The notes under the pieces: model-generated
What the model saw: the letters and a program-made list of their open reading frames with translations, nothing else
Told to the model about the DNA's origin: nothing
The model's database searches: none
DNA from: Candidatus Sumerlaeota bacterium
Lineage (GTDB): Bacteria > Sumerlaeota > Sumerlaeia > JAFGJS01
NCBI GenBank assembly: GCA_016928995.1
Contig: JAFGJS010000095.1
Span: forward strand, 1-13,030
Length of the DNA: 13,030 bases
Reading direction: 5' to 3'
Shown here: positions 3,973-11,876 of the stretch, in pieces
Numbering within the stretch: position 1 is the stretch's first letter
Layout of the letters: each line of letters begins with the position of its first letter
Made by a program: the position numbers and the translations under genes

Positions 3973-4091
3973 AAAGATGAGGTTTTGTAGATTGGCGTTC
4001 GGTGCTATACGGTTGTCATGAGGTTCTGCTTCCAACAGGTCCAGATCATGTAGCGGTCGGTTCGATTGTGAGCGACAGGAGGGATTTTCCG

Positions 4092-5525
4092 ATGAAAATC
4101 AAGCAGTTGCTGCAGGAAATGGTGCGCTTGGGGGGGACGGATCTGCATATCATGGCGGGCATGCGACCGGCGATCCGTGTTCAACGGCAGCTGATTCCGG
4201 TGCAACAATCTCTGGATCTGTCGGCAGAGGACGCTCGTGAGATCATCTACGAAATGCTGACGCCCGAGCAGATCGAGATGTTCGAATCCGATCCGGAGCA
4301 CCGCAACGATATGAATATCGCGCTGAGCGTGCCGCAGCTGGGGCGTTACCGGATGAATCTCTATCGTCAGCGGGGGACGACGGCTGTCTCAATCCGCTCG
4401 CTGCCGATGGAGGTGCCGACGTTGGAATCATGCAACTTGCCGCCGGTGGCCGAGGAATTCGTGCAGGCGCGCCGGGGGCTGGCCTTGATCACCGGCCCGG
4501 CCCGTTCCGGCAAGTCCACAACGCTCGCGGCCCTGATCAATGAGATCAACGAACTGCGCGCGCTGCATATCATCACGATTGAGAATCCGATTGAGTATCT
4601 GCACAATTGCCGCAAGTCGTATGTCAGCCAACGGGAAGTGGGGCGCAATGGCGACACGCGTTCGTTCAAATTGGCGCTGGAATCCGCGATGCATCAGGAT
4701 CCTGACATCATTCAACTGGGCAATCTTGATGATTTTGATCTGGCGGAGATGGCTCTGACCGCAGCGGACAGCGGAGTGCTGGTTTTCGCCACTCTGTCCA
4801 CGGTGTCCGTGGCGCAGACGCTGAGCCGGATTGTGGACATCTTCCCGCAGGAGAAACATCAGCAGGTCTTGACGAGTCTGGCGGACAACCTGGTAGGAGT
4901 GATTTCGCATATGCTGCTGCCGCGCGCAGGCGAGGCGGGATACGTGTTGGCGGCGGAGGTGCTGAGGGCGAACACGATGGCGCGCGACGCCATCCGGCAC
5001 AATCGGCTGGAGGGAATTTATCCGACGCTGAGCCAGTCGATGGATGATGCGTTTATTGATCTGGCGCGGAAGAAAATGGTCGATTATGAGACCGTGGCGC
5101 CATACATTCGCAGCGATTCGACGCATCGCAAGATTCAGACGCTGCTGGGTGTGAGTCGTCCGATCACGAGTTTCACCGGCAACCTGACGCCGCTGCCGAT
5201 CGAACCGCCGGGCGCCACATCCGGCGTACATGCGCGTCCAGGCTCGTCGCCTAACGTATATAACCGTTCCGGTTCGTCGCCGAATGTGCAGACGCGTCCG
5301 CCTTCGTCTCCCGATGTGCGCTCTCGCCCAGCTTCATCGCCCGATGTGCGCGTGCGTCCGGGGACTCCGCCCAAACCGGCGATGGATCCTGCGCCCGAAC
5401 CCACACCCGCAAAAAAGCCGGCGCCGGCGTGGCCGGATGGCGCTTCTCATGAGGCGGGGCATTATACGCCCTCAGGGCGCTATGTGATTCCCCCATGGGA
5501 GAAAAACCGCAAACCATCATCTTAA
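4092..5525 (+). CDS. PilT/GspE-family ATPase homologue with degenerate catalytic motifs and a repeat tail
   Basis: Residues 1-355 align by eye along their length with PilT, the hexameric ATPase that retracts type IV pili. The N-terminal domain has GGTDLHIMAGMRPAIRV (14-30) and RYRMNLYRQRGTTAVSIRSL. The Walker A motif GPARSGKS (135-142) is intact. The other motifs are altered: the Asp-box TIEDPIE reads TIENPIE (Asn165). The Walker B region GEMRD reads GNLDD (210-214), which replaces the catalytic Glu with Asn211 and the Arg with Asp213. The His-box GTLHT reads ATLST (Ser236). Residues 370-477 form a Pro/Ser-rich tail with five 10-residue repeats. I chose the ATG at 4092 because CAGGAGGG precedes it; an ORF start at 4002 has no site. 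No other pilus gene is nearby. It may bind ATP but hydrolyse it poorly, perhaps as a regulatory partner of a true PilT. Confidence 0.85.
   Translation: MKIKQLLQEMVRLGGTDLHIMAGMRPAIRVQRQLIPVQQSLDLSAEDAREIIYEMLTPEQIEMFESDPEHRNDMNIALSVPQLGRYRMNLYRQRGTTAVSIRSLPMEVPTLESCNLPPVAEEFVQARRGLALITGPARSGKSTTLAALINEINELRALHIITIENPIEYLHNCRKSYVSQREVGRNGDTRSFKLALESAMHQDPDIIQLGNLDDFDLAEMALTAADSGVLVFATLSTVSVAQTLSRIVDIFPQEKHQQVLTSLADNLVGVISHMLLPRAGEAGYVLAAEVLRANTMARDAIRHNRLEGIYPTLSQSMDDAFIDLARKKMVDYETVAPYIRSDSTHRKIQTLLGVSRPITSFTGNLTPLPIEPPGATSGVHARPGSSPNVYNRSGSSPNVQTRPPSSPDVRSRPASSPDVRVRPGTPPKPAMDPAPEPTPAKKPAPAWPDGASHEAGHYTPSGRYVIPPWEKNRKPSS
5226..5375 (+). repeat. five tandem 30-base (10-residue) repeats within the PilT-like gene
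   Basis: Five in-frame units of 30 bases encode VHARPGSSPN, VYNRSGSSPN, VQTRPPSSPD, VRSRPASSPD and VRVRPGTPPK (residues 379-428). The protein pattern is V-x-x-R-P-x-S-S-P-N/D. The DNA copies have diverged, most at third codon positions. This suggests an older expansion held at the protein level. Confidence 0.85.
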
Positions 5526-5567: not shown

Positions 5568-5588
5568 ACGCTTGATTAAATCAAGCGT
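5568..5588. other. perfect 21-base palindrome between the PilT-like gene and def
   Basis: ACGCTTGATT and AATCAAGCGT flank a single central A. A run of nine Ts begins 11 bases later (5599-5607), too far away for a standard terminator. It may still terminate the PilT-like transcript weakly, or it could be an operator upstream of def. The sequence alone does not decide. Confidence 0.5.
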
Positions 5589-5678
5589 CATGCCAGTGTT
5601 TTTTTTTACAGTTTTCCTTGGCATAAGGGAAGGCCGGGCGGTATTGGTTGTTAAAGACAACGATCAGGAGCAGGTGTC

Positions 5679-7303: not shown

Positions 7304-8521
7304 TCAGAGCTCGTTCTCTGTGCCCTCTGTGATCTCTGTGGTGAATTGTTTGCGCGTTTTGCGGCTGCCGTCGTAGATTTCGTAAGACAGCAGACGGCAT
7401 TCAAGATCCGCGTTGTGAAAAATGGTTCGCTTCGACGTGCGCAGCCCTACGCACTTGCCGAGTTCAAGGTTGCCGGTGAAAATGTGGCATTGCCAGCCGG
7501 AGCATTGCTGTTTGAAAAAGTCGCCGATGCGCTTGTACTCCTCGCGCAACGCATCGGTATGCCCCAGCCGCACGCCGTATTCGGGATTTACCGCTAACGT
7601 CCCCGGCGGATCGGGCAGCGGTGTTTCGGCGAAATCGCAAACATGGAACTCAATGCAGTGCTCTACTCCGGCTGTCTGCGCATTGTGGCGCGCCGCGACG
7701 ATGGCGTGAGGATCATGGTCGGATGCGATGACCGGCGCCGGAGTTTTTTTCACGGTTTGACGGCGCGCCTGGGCTCGCAGCGCCTCCCATTTATTTTTCT
7801 CAAAGCCGGTCACGTGCATGAAGCCGAAATTTCCGCGCAGCAGCCCCGGCGCGCGATTCAACGCGAGCAACGCTCCTTCAATCGCCAGCGTGCCGCTGCC
7901 GCACATCGGATTCACCAGCGGCCGCTCGCCGTCATATCCCGCCGCCATGAGGATTCCAGCGGCCAGCGATTCGCGCAACGGCGCGGTGTGAGGACGTTTG
8001 CGGTATCCGCGATCCGTAAGTTTTTCGCCGCTGGCGTTCAACCAGACTTCGGCGCGAGAGCCTTGCCAGCGCAGCCAAAGCACGGCGCCGTTACGTTCCG
8101 GACCGGAATCCGGGCGATGGCCGCATTGGCGTTGCATCCGGTCGGCCACGGCGTCTTTCACAACCAAACTGGGATACATCTGGTTGTCGATCGTGGGATG
8201 CTTCACATTGGAAGTCACGGTGAAATATCCATCCGGCGGCAGCCATTCCTCCCAAGGCAAGCGTAGCGTCGCCTGGAACAAATCGTCGGGGCCATCGCAA
8301 GGAAATGCGGCGAGACGCAGCATCACGGCATACGCCGTGCGCAGATGCAGACTCAACCGCATCGCGTCGTCCAGATTTCCGCGCACCCCGGCGCCGGCCG
8401 GAGATTGTTCGGTGATTTTATAACCCAATGCGGCGATTTCCTGCTCCAGATAGGGCGCCAGCCCCGGTGCGCACGTGCAAAACAGCGGCCGGCTGGCGGT
8501 CCAGGAGGCATGGCATTCCAG
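7304..8521 (-). CDS. RlmL/YpsC-type THUMP-domain rRNA guanine-N2 methyltransferase
   Basis: This family methylates a guanine of 23S rRNA using S-adenosylmethionine. Homology begins near 8488 with PLFCTCAPGLAPYLEQEIAA, the usual N-terminus. No ATG, GTG or TTG lies in frame there; the first usable one, TTG at 8428, would cut off this region. I set the start at the in-frame CTG at 8521, but it is uncertain. Counting from the TTG, a THUMP region covers about 50-140 and the methyltransferase domain 147-355. The SAM-binding motif is NPMCGSGT (173-180). The catalytic motif normally reading NPPYG is NPEYG (281-285). The last 13 residues, FTTEITEGTENEL, come from a dispersed DNA repeat. The gene begins just after the GGDEF-EAL gene and may share its transcript. 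Confidence 0.88.
   Translation of the reverse strand: MECHASWTASRPLFCTCAPGLAPYLEQEIAALGYKITEQSPAGAGVRGNLDDAMRLSLHLRTAYAVMLRLAAFPCDGPDDLFQATLRLPWEEWLPPDGYFTVTSNVKHPTIDNQMYPSLVVKDAVADRMQRQCGHRPDSGPERNGAVLWLRWQGSRAEVWLNASGEKLTDRGYRKRPHTAPLRESLAAGILMAAGYDGERPLVNPMCGSGTLAIEGALLALNRAPGLLRGNFGFMHVTGFEKNKWEALRAQARRQTVKKTPAPVIASDHDPHAIVAARHNAQTAGVEHCIEFHVCDFAETPLPDPPGTLAVNPEYGVRLGHTDALREEYKRIGDFFKQQCSGWQCHIFTGNLELGKCVGLRTSKRTIFHNADLECRLLSYEIYDGSRKTRKQFTTEITEGTENEL
7307..7345. repeat. CTCTGTG-type intergenic repeat, right copy, overlapping a gene end
   Basis: CTCTGTG-like words recur here with small changes (TTCTCTGTGCCCTCTGTGAT, then CTCTGTGGTGAA). Repeats of the form CTCTGTG-CCTCTGTG-GTGAA are widespread between genes in some environmental bacteria, from memory. 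This copy forms the 3' end of the methyltransferase coding region and is inverted relative to 6927-6960. Confidence 0.65.
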
Positions 8522-8555: not shown

Positions 8556-11500
8556 TTATTGCGGCGTGATGAATTGATGGCCGGACTCCAATAGTTTGGT
8601 GGCTTCTTCCGCGCAGATAGGCTGGGAGAAAGTGTATCCTTGAGCGTATTCGCAACCGAGCCGTCGCAGCAGTTCGATGATGCCGTCTTGCTCCACGCCC
8701 TCAGCCACGACGTTCATGCCCAGGTTATGCGCCAGGCTGACGATGGTGGAGAGCATCATGCTGCCGTCGTTTCTGAGATGCGCGCCGGAAAGGAAAGATC
8801 GGTCGATTTTCAATGTGTCGAAAGGCAGGTGGTGCAGTTTGCTCAGCGAAGAATATCCTGTCCCGAAATCGTCGATGCAGAGCTGGATCCCGCGTTGCTT
8901 GATCTGATTGAGCAACTCCAGCACGATCTCCTCATGCTCCATGATCACGCTTTCCGTGAGTTCCATTTTCAGGAGCGCCGGATCCAGTTCGGCGCTCTTC
9001 AATATATCGTCGAGCTGAGCGAGCATGTCCGACTGCAGGAGCTGGCGCGTGGAGATATTGACGCTGATGCTCGGAGCGCGTTCGCCGAATTGACGGCGCC
9101 AATCGGCGGCGGTCAGGCTGGCCTGTTGCAACACGAGCATGCCCAGCGGCAAAATGACGCCGGTTTCCTCGGCCAGCGGAATGAATTCGTTCGGCATCAC
9201 AATGTCGCCCTTGGGATGCTGCCAGCGGAGCAGCGCTTCGAAACTGACGATGCGGCCGTCATGCAAGTCCACGATGGGCTGGTAATAAACCTCGAATTCG
9301 AGACGTTCGATGGATTTGCGCAGTTCGGTTTCCATACGGAGGAAATCGCGGACCGTTTCCCGCATCTCGCTGTCGAACTCCACGCGCTGGGCCTTGCCCA
9401 GGAGCTTGGCCCGATGCATGGCCGTGTCGCCGTCGCGCAGGATGTCTTCCGGGTTGTCATATTGCCCGGCGCAGAACGCGATGCCGATGCTGGTGTTGAC
9501 GAAGATCTCATGGCCTCGTACGTCAAACGGCTTGGACATCGCCGTTTGCATGCTTTCCGCGAGTTCGCGCGCCTCGCCGGGAAGCTGGAGGTCTTCCAGC
9601 AGCATGGCGAATTCGTCCCCCTCCAGGCGCGCGCATAAATCGCCGGGGCGGGAGATGTTCTTCATCCGCCGCGCGAAGTCCACCAGCAATTGATCCGCGA
9701 TGCTGTGCCCGAGGCTGTCGGTTACGATTTTAAAGCGGTCAATGTCGATGAACAGCACAGCGAACATGCTGTTCTTGATCCGCTTGGAGCGGTCCAGCGA
9801 GCGCTGCAAGTGCTCCATGAAGAGCAGGCGGTTGGCCAGGCCGGTGAGCCGGTCATGAAAAGCGTGATGTTGCAGTTGCTCTTCCGCCAGTTTGCGTTCC
9901 GTGATGTCGCGCAAGGATCCCGCCATGCGGACAGGCCGCCCATTGTCTTCGAAAATCGCCTCGCCGCGCGCAACGGTCCAGCGATACGATGAATCCTTAT
10001 GGCGCATGCGGGCTTCGGCTTCGAAATGCGGCGTCATCTGCTTCAGGTGCGTGTCGAGTTTCAAGCGCAGATCCACGACGTCGTCCGGATGGACGCGGGA
10101 GAGCCAATCTTCCAGCGTTTCGCCGATCTCGTCCGGCTCCAGTCCGAACATCTCTTTCCAGCGTGACGAGTAGTATACGACGCCCGTCTCCAGGTTCCAG
10201 TCCCAGAGTCCATCATTGGCCCCGCGCGAGGCCAGCGCATAGCGCTCTTCGCTTTCACGCAGCGCCTTTTCCTGCTGTTTGCGCTCCGTCAGGTTCTGCA
10301 CGATGATCTGAACCGCGCTGGCGCCTTCGTAAAGGATCGGAATCAACGTCGCTTCCACATCCAGGATGTTGCCGTCTGGTCTGAGCAGCTGGCACTCCAA
10401 CTCCTGCGAAAAAACGGATTGATGCGGATTGTTCGTCATTTCCAGGAGATGCTCCAGCATCTGCGCATACTGTTTGTGGCACGATGGATGGATCCATTCC
10501 TGAAAATCTTTGTTGATGATGTCGGTGTGCGTGCGGGCGTTGAGCATTTTGATCGCGCTGCGGTTAGCGAATGCGATCTTATGATCTTGCAGGACGAACA
10601 TGGCCATCGGCGACATTTCCACGAGTTGGCGGTAGCGCGTTTCGCTCTCGCGCAGCGCCTCCTCCGCCTCTTTCAAGTCGGTCATGTCAATGTCGAGGGT
10701 GTAAATGTTGATGTCGCCTTGCGTCGTCTGCAGCATTTCGTGGCTGGAATAAACGCAAACCAGCGATCCATCCTTGCGTTTCAGGTCGATCTCGCCAGTG
10801 GGCAGCCGTTCGCCGTTCTTGATCCAGTTTTCGATGCCGGTCAGCACGCGGTTTTTATGCCGTTCGGGGACGATCAGATCCTCGACCTTTTGCCCGAGCG
10901 CTTCGACTTTCGTGTAACCGTAAAGATTTTCACAGGCCTTGTTCCAGAAATTGATCCGGTGGCGCCGGTCGAAGCCATAGACGCCGATTTTGGGGATGTA
11001 TTCCATCAGGGTGCGGAAGCGGCGCTCGCTTTCATGCAGCGCTTGCAATCCGCGTTGACGCTCGATTTCCGCGCCGGCCCGCAGGGCGAAGAGCTTGACG
11101 ATCGACGTGGTGTCCTGGGAATCGGGGAGCGGATCGTCGTGCATGACGGAGAGCATGCCGAGCGGCTGGCCTTGCGAGTCGGTGAGCAGCGCGCCGGAAT
11201 ACGCCTGGATGCGCAGACGCCCCAGCAGATCGTCCTCGGGAAAGTGATTCCACACTTCATGGGTGTAATGCACGGCTCGATCAGAGAGCAGGCGTTTGAC
11301 CGGCGAGCGGGCGACGGAGAAGTTGAAGTCTTCCGCCAGGCTGCCCTGATTCCAGAACGCGAGCGTTCGGAGCTCCTTCTGGTGACTGTCGCGAAATTCC
11401 GCGATGATGCAATAATTCGCCTGCAATGCGCGGGCCAGCGTGCCGGCCAATGAACGAAAGAAACTTTTACCCGTGCTCGCGGCGGTGCTTTCCAGGATAT

Positions 11501-11876
11501 GATGGAGCATCCGCTCATGCTGGCGCGATTGGGTTAAGTCGCGGTATATCACGATCTGAATCGACGGATCGCCGGAGGCCGCAAAGGTTTTCGCGCGCAC
11601 GATCAGCGTCTTGCCGTTGGGGCAACGCAAGCGTTTTTCAGAAAATTGACCGGCCGTGCCATCGGTCTCTGGATCCCGCTCTTCGCCCCAGGCCTGTTTC
11701 GCTGTTTTCCCCACGAGGCTGTGAACCGGTTGGCCGACCATCAAGGCCATGGGCGGATTGCAATAAAGGATGCGCCCCTGCAGATCAAAGCCGACGACGC
11801 CGTCCGGCATCGATTCATAAATCAAGCCCAGCAGTTCGGACGGCGGCATATCATTATTCACTAAATCGTTGTTCAT
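8556..11876 (-). CDS. PAS-GAF-PAS-PAS-PAS-GGDEF-EAL cyclic-di-GMP signalling protein
   Basis: This 1106-residue protein makes or breaks cyclic di-GMP. The rough domain order is PAS (13-115), GAF (135-275), PAS (283-405), PAS (411-530), PAS of the PAS_3 type (541-664, ending GSLRDITERK), GGDEF (665-840) and EAL (850-1095). No membrane segment is visible, so it should be a cytoplasmic sensor. The GGDEF signature reads EGDEF (752-756); an inhibitory-site RxxD (RPGD, 743-746) stands five residues before it. The EAL domain has its key residues: FEALLRW (879-885), NIS, ELTES (972-976), DDFGTGYSS (1002-1010), KIDRSF, AEGVEQ and QGY. Phosphodiesterase activity is therefore likely; cyclase activity is uncertain. 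The ATG at 11876 has no strong ribosome binding site. It diverges from the CsgG-like lipoprotein gene. Confidence 0.93.
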   Translation of the reverse strand: MNNDLVNNDMPPSELLGLIYESMPDGVVGFDLQGRILYCNPPMALMVGQPVHSLVGKTAKQAWGEERDPETDGTAGQFSEKRLRCPNGKTLIVRAKTFAASGDPSIQIVIYRDLTQSRQHERMLHHILESTAASTGKSFFRSLAGTLARALQANYCIIAEFRDSHQKELRTLAFWNQGSLAEDFNFSVARSPVKRLLSDRAVHYTHEVWNHFPEDDLLGRLRIQAYSGALLTDSQGQPLGMLSVMHDDPLPDSQDTTSIVKLFALRAGAEIERQRGLQALHESERRFRTLMEYIPKIGVYGFDRRHRINFWNKACENLYGYTKVEALGQKVEDLIVPERHKNRVLTGIENWIKNGERLPTGEIDLKRKDGSLVCVYSSHEMLQTTQGDINIYTLDIDMTDLKEAEEALRESETRYRQLVEMSPMAMFVLQDHKIAFANRSAIKMLNARTHTDIINKDFQEWIHPSCHKQYAQMLEHLLEMTNNPHQSVFSQELECQLLRPDGNILDVEATLIPILYEGASAVQIIVQNLTERKQQEKALRESEERYALASRGANDGLWDWNLETGVVYYSSRWKEMFGLEPDEIGETLEDWLSRVHPDDVVDLRLKLDTHLKQMTPHFEAEARMRHKDSSYRWTVARGEAIFEDNGRPVRMAGSLRDITERKLAEEQLQHHAFHDRLTGLANRLLFMEHLQRSLDRSKRIKNSMFAVLFIDIDRFKIVTDSLGHSIADQLLVDFARRMKNISRPGDLCARLEGDEFAMLLEDLQLPGEARELAESMQTAMSKPFDVRGHEIFVNTSIGIAFCAGQYDNPEDILRDGDTAMHRAKLLGKAQRVEFDSEMRETVRDFLRMETELRKSIERLEFEVYYQPIVDLHDGRIVSFEALLRWQHPKGDIVMPNEFIPLAEETGVILPLGMLVLQQASLTAADWRRQFGERAPSISVNISTRQLLQSDMLAQLDDILKSAELDPALLKMELTESVIMEHEEIVLELLNQIKQRGIQLCIDDFGTGYSSLSKLHHLPFDTLKIDRSFLSGAHLRNDGSMMLSTIVSLAHNLGMNVVAEGVEQDGIIELLRRLGCEYAQGYTFSQPICAEEATKLLESGHQFITPQ

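Follow-up and report, generated by a model that had tools for sequence, protein, structure and literature searches.

A PilT-family protein with a degenerate catalytic site and a conserved IPPWE tail in Candidatus Sumerlaeota

A pilT-like gene between ribosomal protein genes and def

The window analysed here is an entire contig (C139, 13,030 nucleotides) of a draft Candidatus Sumerlaeota genome of 4.55 Mb and 92% completeness. Its plus strand carries, at 4092..5525, a coding sequence for a PilT-family protein of 477 amino acids plus stop, with a degenerate catalytic site and a C-terminal tail; the assignment rests on the sequence itself, a score of 316.3 bits against TIGR01420, the Pfam domain T2SSE and a predicted PilT fold. 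A Shine-Dalgarno-like AGGAGGG, read from the sequence (4077..4083, plus strand), lies 8 nt upstream of the ATG at 4092. A preliminary description of this DNA had placed the gene at 4092-5201 and considered its length preserved. That interval covers the conserved core only; the true end is at 5525, 107 codons further on, and the length has changed both by this 107-residue tail extension and by a deletion of about seven residues near residue 314.

The upstream neighbours are rplM-rpsI, divergent on the minus strand, and the downstream neighbour is def (peptide deformylase). In the interval before def, a perfect 9-bp hairpin is followed, after a gap of 10 nt, by nine T (5568..5607, plus strand; fold z -2.9). 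It is low in GC and was not called by a terminator scan, and may be a weak terminator. The 13,030-nt window yielded no further pilus gene, which agrees with the preliminary description that the gene stands apart from any pilus cluster; it is alone between rplM/rpsI and def.

Hydrolysis residues are lost and putative interface residues kept

As a reference we took 50 alignment columns with an invariance of 97% or more across 53 canonical PilT-family proteins. Each of the 53 departs at no more than four of these columns, most at none or one. The window protein departs at 15: S16T, G32R, D75N, T137A, G138R, D165N, R201H, E211N, R213D, T217L, T227S, H229V, H236S, Q273H and the Met at about position 314. 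Substitution on this scale is far beyond chance. A sequencing error or frameshift behind the motif loss was rejected, as the frame is single and open and the substitutions are scattered.

The motifs of the window protein (P0001) read GPARSGKST, TIENPIE, DPDIIQLGNLDD and ATLST. By sequence and column comparison, all on the plus strand, the Walker A motif GPARSGKS (4494..4517) keeps Lys141 and has T137A and G138R; the P-loop, previously called intact, is so in its lysine and not in these two residues. The Asp box TIENPIE (4575..4595) keeps Glu164 and Glu168 and has Asn for Asp165. The Walker B region HQDPDIIQLGNLDD (4692..4733) carries R201H, R213D and E211N, the last at the catalytic glutamate, and the His-box region SGVLVFATLST (4770..4802) carries H229V and H236S. 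The alignment also shows R87 (4350..4352, plus strand) and R102 (4395..4397, plus strand) to be retained. These are the putative equivalents of two arginine fingers, which are donated to the neighbouring subunit, and both positions are invariant in 36 of 36 aligned sequences. Work on PilB assigns catalysis to E395, the Walker-B Glu, and Mg2+ binding to the Asp-box Glu, with R271 and R286 reaching the nucleotide of the neighbour (PMC5424180); we equate R271/R286 with R87/R102 from their shared 15-residue spacing and their invariance.

The altered TIED, GEMRD and GTLHT motifs and the retained Lys141 reported in the preliminary description are all really present, but two of its labels were interchanged: TIED belongs to the Asp box, and GEMRD contains the catalytic Glu after Walker B (PMC5424180, PMC6762196). 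The preliminary description also understated the extent of the loss, which takes in R201H, R213D, H229V, T217L, T227S, Q273H, T137A and G138R as well. TIEN was rejected as a sign of lost catalysis, being common in canonical PilT proteins of other phyla: it occurs in 81 of 200 fetched relatives, a fraction inflated by the use of TIENPIEY among the search patterns, and 62 of the 81 are otherwise canonical. Within the host's class, TIEN is unique to the window protein.

With E211, R213, H229 and H236 gone and E164, R87 and R102 in place, the residues predicted to hydrolyse the protein's own nucleotide are lost, while those predicted to bind nucleotide and to serve the neighbour are kept. It is very improbable that the protein is still an ATPase, working through its substituted residues or a remodelled active site. 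Such activity would fit the intact Walker A Lys and Asp-box Glu, but the catalytic Glu, the Walker-B Arg and both His-box His residues were lost together. A single change at E204 or R206 of PilT (E211 and R213 here) disables PilT alone, and Ala at the Glu or at a His is by itself inactivating (PMC6762196, PMC12607626).

Family membership, fold and tail

The TIGR01420 (PilT/PilU) score falls narrowly below the NCBIfam cut-off of 319.1 bits, and all other family models match far more weakly. The same model gives 441.8 bits for an intact paralogue in the host (L002) and 336.1 bits for a degenerate relative in genome G009, both described below. AlphaFold2 predicts a normal two-domain PilT subunit, with pLDDT above 90 across most of residues 1-352, and the top Foldseek matches are PilT and PilU, as are all solved-structure relatives; this prediction agrees with the preliminary description, which took the overall fold to be preserved. 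In phylogenetic trees the protein lies inside the PilT radiation, nested in a subfamily with support of 85/97, or 99.9/100 when a member from genome G110 is added. Among the Walker A Lys, Asp-box Glu, Walker-B Glu/Arg and His box, only the first two are kept. A close known likeness, in fold (Foldseek E 3e-39, about 39% identity) and in sequence family, is Geobacter metallireducens PilT4 (PDB 6OJX/6OK2). The window protein resembles PilT4 in its Walker A Lys, Asp-box Glu and arginine fingers; it differs in lacking the catalytic Glu, the Walker-B Arg and the His-box His, and in having a Pro-rich tail with an IPPWE tag.

The tail begins with a disordered Pro/Ser-rich linker (5190..5453, plus strand; pLDDT below 50) in which about four RPxSSPxV-like repeats can be made out by eye; they were not detected as DNA repeats. 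In the AlphaFold2 model residues 367-454 are disordered and the end of the tail is partly ordered. There lies the tag GRYVIPPWEK (5475..5504, plus strand), which sequence comparison finds in all tailed members of the subfamily.

An intact tailed paralogue in the same genome

The preliminary description proposed a search of the host genome for canonical pilT and pilB. This yielded eight PilT-type genes, the window copy included, and ten GspE/PilB-type matches; the seven other PilT-type genes have their GExRD and HT motifs in place. The closest of the seven, L002 (G000:C17:14877-15950, minus strand, 42% identity), retains every motif. Three features unite it with the window gene: the FExDPxxR insertion after FE, a second insertion after REVG, and a tail rich in Pro, which in L002 ends in GRTVIPPWEQQ. 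L002 adjoins a gene whose product carries a prepilin N-methylation motif. When the 4.5 Mb host genome was searched with a DNA pattern for the IPPWE tag, only the window gene and L002 had it at a C-terminus. The other two matches are a PrmA-like protein and a short frame, and the idea of the tag as a more general signal was rejected. The host's class shows a strong expansion of PilT/GspE-type ATPases, with 8 to 21 matches per genome at E 0.001 in the 39 genomes surveyed.

The host also has 16 PilC-type domain matches on about 8 loci, which indicates several filament systems. These loci would offer targets for a homohexamer that passively caps or locks a platform protein and keeps hold of the filament base with no active ATPase partner; the fold and interface residues, both retained, are compatible with such a ring. 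Against this, dead PilT is known to function only alongside an active partner (PMC6762196), and we regard a passive cap as decidedly improbable.

Distribution of the IPPWE-tailed subfamily

We define the IPPWE-tailed PilT subfamily by the FExDPxxR insertion, a REVGxxxDT insertion and a C-terminal xIPPWE(K/Q). The window protein has all three and scores 605 bits against the subfamily profile, on which non-members reach at most about 435 bits. Across 39 genomes of the class, five full-length genes score 605-678 bits, against at most 423 bits for all other PilT proteins. Members occur in 5 of the 39 genomes: the full-length genes are the two in the host, one intact gene each in G002 and G011, which belong to one family, and one degenerate gene in G009. 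The fifth genome, G016, is of the same genus as G009 and has its degenerate gene in two pieces, the N-terminal half joined to pilB on contig C179 and the C-terminal half running from base 1 of contig C135. At G016:C179 (L161:9403-10632) the PilT N-half passes in-frame into the C-half of PilB at TIEDPIEY, and the PilT C-half is found at G016:C135:1-624 (L166). A genuine PilT-PilB fusion was rejected; with the absent C-half opening a separate contig at base 1, this is most likely an assembly chimera at a shared motif.

A wider search of 386 genomes found one further member, in G110 of another phylum, intact and with no tail. The tail thus seems to have been gained within the host's class. The genus of G009 and G016 has no tailed intact paralogue, and G002 and G011 have the intact copy only, with no degenerate one; the intact and dead paralogues are thus not an obligate pair.

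Purifying selection on a second degenerate member

The degenerate protein of G009 (L131) has lost 13 of the 50 near-invariant columns, with K141R, E211Y, R213G, D214T, H229L and H236T among the changes. Like the window protein, it lacks E211, R213, H229 and H236 and keeps E164, R87 and R102, yet the replacements in the two proteins differ at almost every lost catalytic position. Its gene comes after coaBC, a canonical pilT and udg, all on one strand and closely spaced, a neighbourhood that suggests a motor-related context in that genus.

Between G009 and G016 the N-terminal halves are identical at 163 of 166 positions (dN/dS 0.010-0.020) and the C-terminal halves at 183 of 208 (dN/dS 0.06-0.09). 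For the same two species, the adjacent canonical pilT gives 0.027-0.035 and udg about 0.10. Twelve of the 25 differences in the C-half fall in the last 45 residues, that is, in the linker and tail, although the end, AIPPWEKQP, is the same in both save for one A to V immediately before it. Six fall in the Walker-B/His-box stretch, including Tyr versus Ser at the former catalytic-Glu position, a difference that fits a protein no longer under selection for catalysis. The low dN/dS shows that the dead PilT is a selected protein, maintained by strong purifying selection, at least in this genus; the estimate comes from the G009/G016 pair.

This result bears on whether the window gene is a decaying duplicate, a pseudogene in progress whose frame happens still to be open. 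Its branch is long (0.84, against about 0.2-0.6 in canonical subfamily members), and it is a single copy in one species with no close relative, as decay might leave it. Set against these points are the intact 477-codon frame with a good ribosome site, the survival of 35 of the 50 near-invariant residues, both arginine fingers and the C-terminal tag, and the purifying selection on a comparable member in another genus. Decay is in our judgement quite improbable.

A stand-alone nucleotide sensor or regulator, which would bind nucleotide through Walker A and signal through the IPPWE tag to a non-motor partner with no ATPase ring, also seems unlikely. It would suit the orphan position of the gene away from pilus genes in the window and the long disordered linker with a conserved tag at its end, and there is precedent in PilB, which signals to EPS production (PMC11656802). 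Yet both degenerate members conserve the two arginine fingers, which have a role only where one subunit meets another, and the tag is carried by intact members too, so that it is not specific to dead copies. Moreover, in the sister lineage under selection Arg takes the place of the Walker A Lys, and nucleotide binding may not be the property that is conserved.

Shared or separate origin of the degenerate copies

In maximum-likelihood trees the window protein and the G009 copy group together, with SH-aLRT/bootstrap support of 82/83 on the full alignment and 57/76 without the motif columns, values that fall to 42/58 and 70/54, respectively, with G110 added; long branches could attract one another in these trees. 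None of the AU tests rejects independent origins. Lost positions overlap at 7 of the 50 columns between the window protein and the G009 copy, against 3.9 expected (p 0.036), which is weak evidence either way. The preliminary description had suggested a tree to see whether proteins with these substitutions form a conserved clade; the other degenerate members have different ones, and common descent with them is weakly supported. For the two degenerate copies we favour a single origin, which is not proven. A recent duplication of L002 is disfavoured, with AU p of 0.038 on the full alignment and 0.071 without the motif columns; with G110 as outgroup the values are 0.075 and 0.18.

A possible structural companion of an active motor

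PilT motors have been studied as rings of identical active subunits together with an active accessory protein, PilU. The window protein may be a hydrolysis-dead, PilT-family structural companion of an active PilT-type motor, a reading to which we give about an even chance. It draws on the loss of residues for hydrolysis in cis while the trans-acting fingers R87 and R102 stay, and on the precedent of ATPase-dead PilT in Vibrio cholerae together with PilU-like density beneath PilT. Also in its favour are the shared losses and the purifying selection in L131, whose gene is packed behind a canonical pilT and udg. The preliminary description had likewise proposed a nucleotide-binding, hydrolysis-poor protein under selection; as judged from sequence this is still the best reading, with the selection itself seen in the member from another genus.

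The protein would bind ATP or ADP with no turnover and assemble with PilT-type subunits. It could enter a mixed ring and contribute its arginine fingers to the site of the adjacent subunit, or form an inactive ring that stacks against an active one. The assembly could couple, brake or tune the retraction of a pilus or pseudopilus, and the IPPWE tag presumably takes both paralogues to one common docking partner. Retention of the arginine fingers fits a mixed ring; the reported failure of PilT and PilU to mix speaks for stacked rings. The reports of PilT and PilU without mixed hexamers (PMC12607626, PMC6762196) also count against a companion role as such, as do the lack of obligate pairing of intact and dead paralogues in the G009/G016 genus, G002 and G011, and the place of the gene between rplM/rpsI and def, outside a pilus cluster.

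In V. cholerae, inactive PilT still lets PilU drive retraction (PMC6762196), and cryo-ET shows a PilU-like density under PilT (PMC13142100). In Pseudomonas aeruginosa, E204A PilT fails to restore motility, even with PilU (PMC12607626); the outcome of a dead PilT therefore depends on the system. PilU (PDB 9N32, Pseudomonas) is, like the proposed companion, a second PilT-type protein thought to work only with another PilT. The window protein resembles it in structure (Foldseek) and by a phmmer match, but PilU keeps the catalytic motifs that the window protein has lost. The case resembles the ATPase-dead PilT made in the laboratory, which supports PilU (PMC6762196). PilT of V. cholerae MO10 offers a natural Walker-B Arg change, R206S (R213D here), and works only with PilU (PMC6762196); it differs in being one recent change in a strain, as against 15 changes in a deep lineage.

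More broadly, a lineage of dead PilT-family subunits may have arisen once, ahead of the divergence of two families in the class, and persisted as a non-motor part of a type IV filament motor, recruited through IPPWE together with an active paralogue; we hold this view only tentatively and think it somewhat more apt to be wrong than right. Dead PilT supporting PilU is known from engineered mutants, and we found no description of a natural PilT pseudo-ATPase in the open-access literature searched, although one may exist elsewhere. If real, a dead PilT maintained in nature would mean that the non-catalytic role of PilT is exploited in evolution by itself, and would provide a natural test of the shares of structural coupling and ATP turnover in retraction.

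Other degenerate PilT-like proteins and other genes in the window

Two Lachnospiraceae genes (L062:39-1088 and L070:8001-9050) encode PilT-like proteins with Arg for the Walker A Lys, GMINT for GEMRD and no His-box His, apparently an independent change. Like the window protein they have lost the catalytic Glu and the His box, and they lie near an intact pilT; unlike it, they belong to a different part of the PilT family and have no IPPWE tail, which makes them a parallel case and not orthologues. From these genes, catalysis appears to have been lost in PilT paralogues more than once. Several catalytic positions are also altered in PilT-like proteins at L103, L087, L106 and L109, from Riflebacteria and rumen or clostridial MAGs.

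Three further genes of the window lie on the minus strand. At 8556-11876 is a 1106-residue multi-PAS, GGDEF and EAL protein, a candidate c-di-GMP enzyme or sensor. At 7304-8428 is a predicted stand-alone THUMP-methyltransferase that resembles N-terminal RlmKL, its start overlapping the reading frame of the region downstream of the EAL protein. At 1101-1541 is a 146-residue HD-domain protein that matches only the hydrolase part of RelA/SpoT and may be a small alarmone hydrolase.
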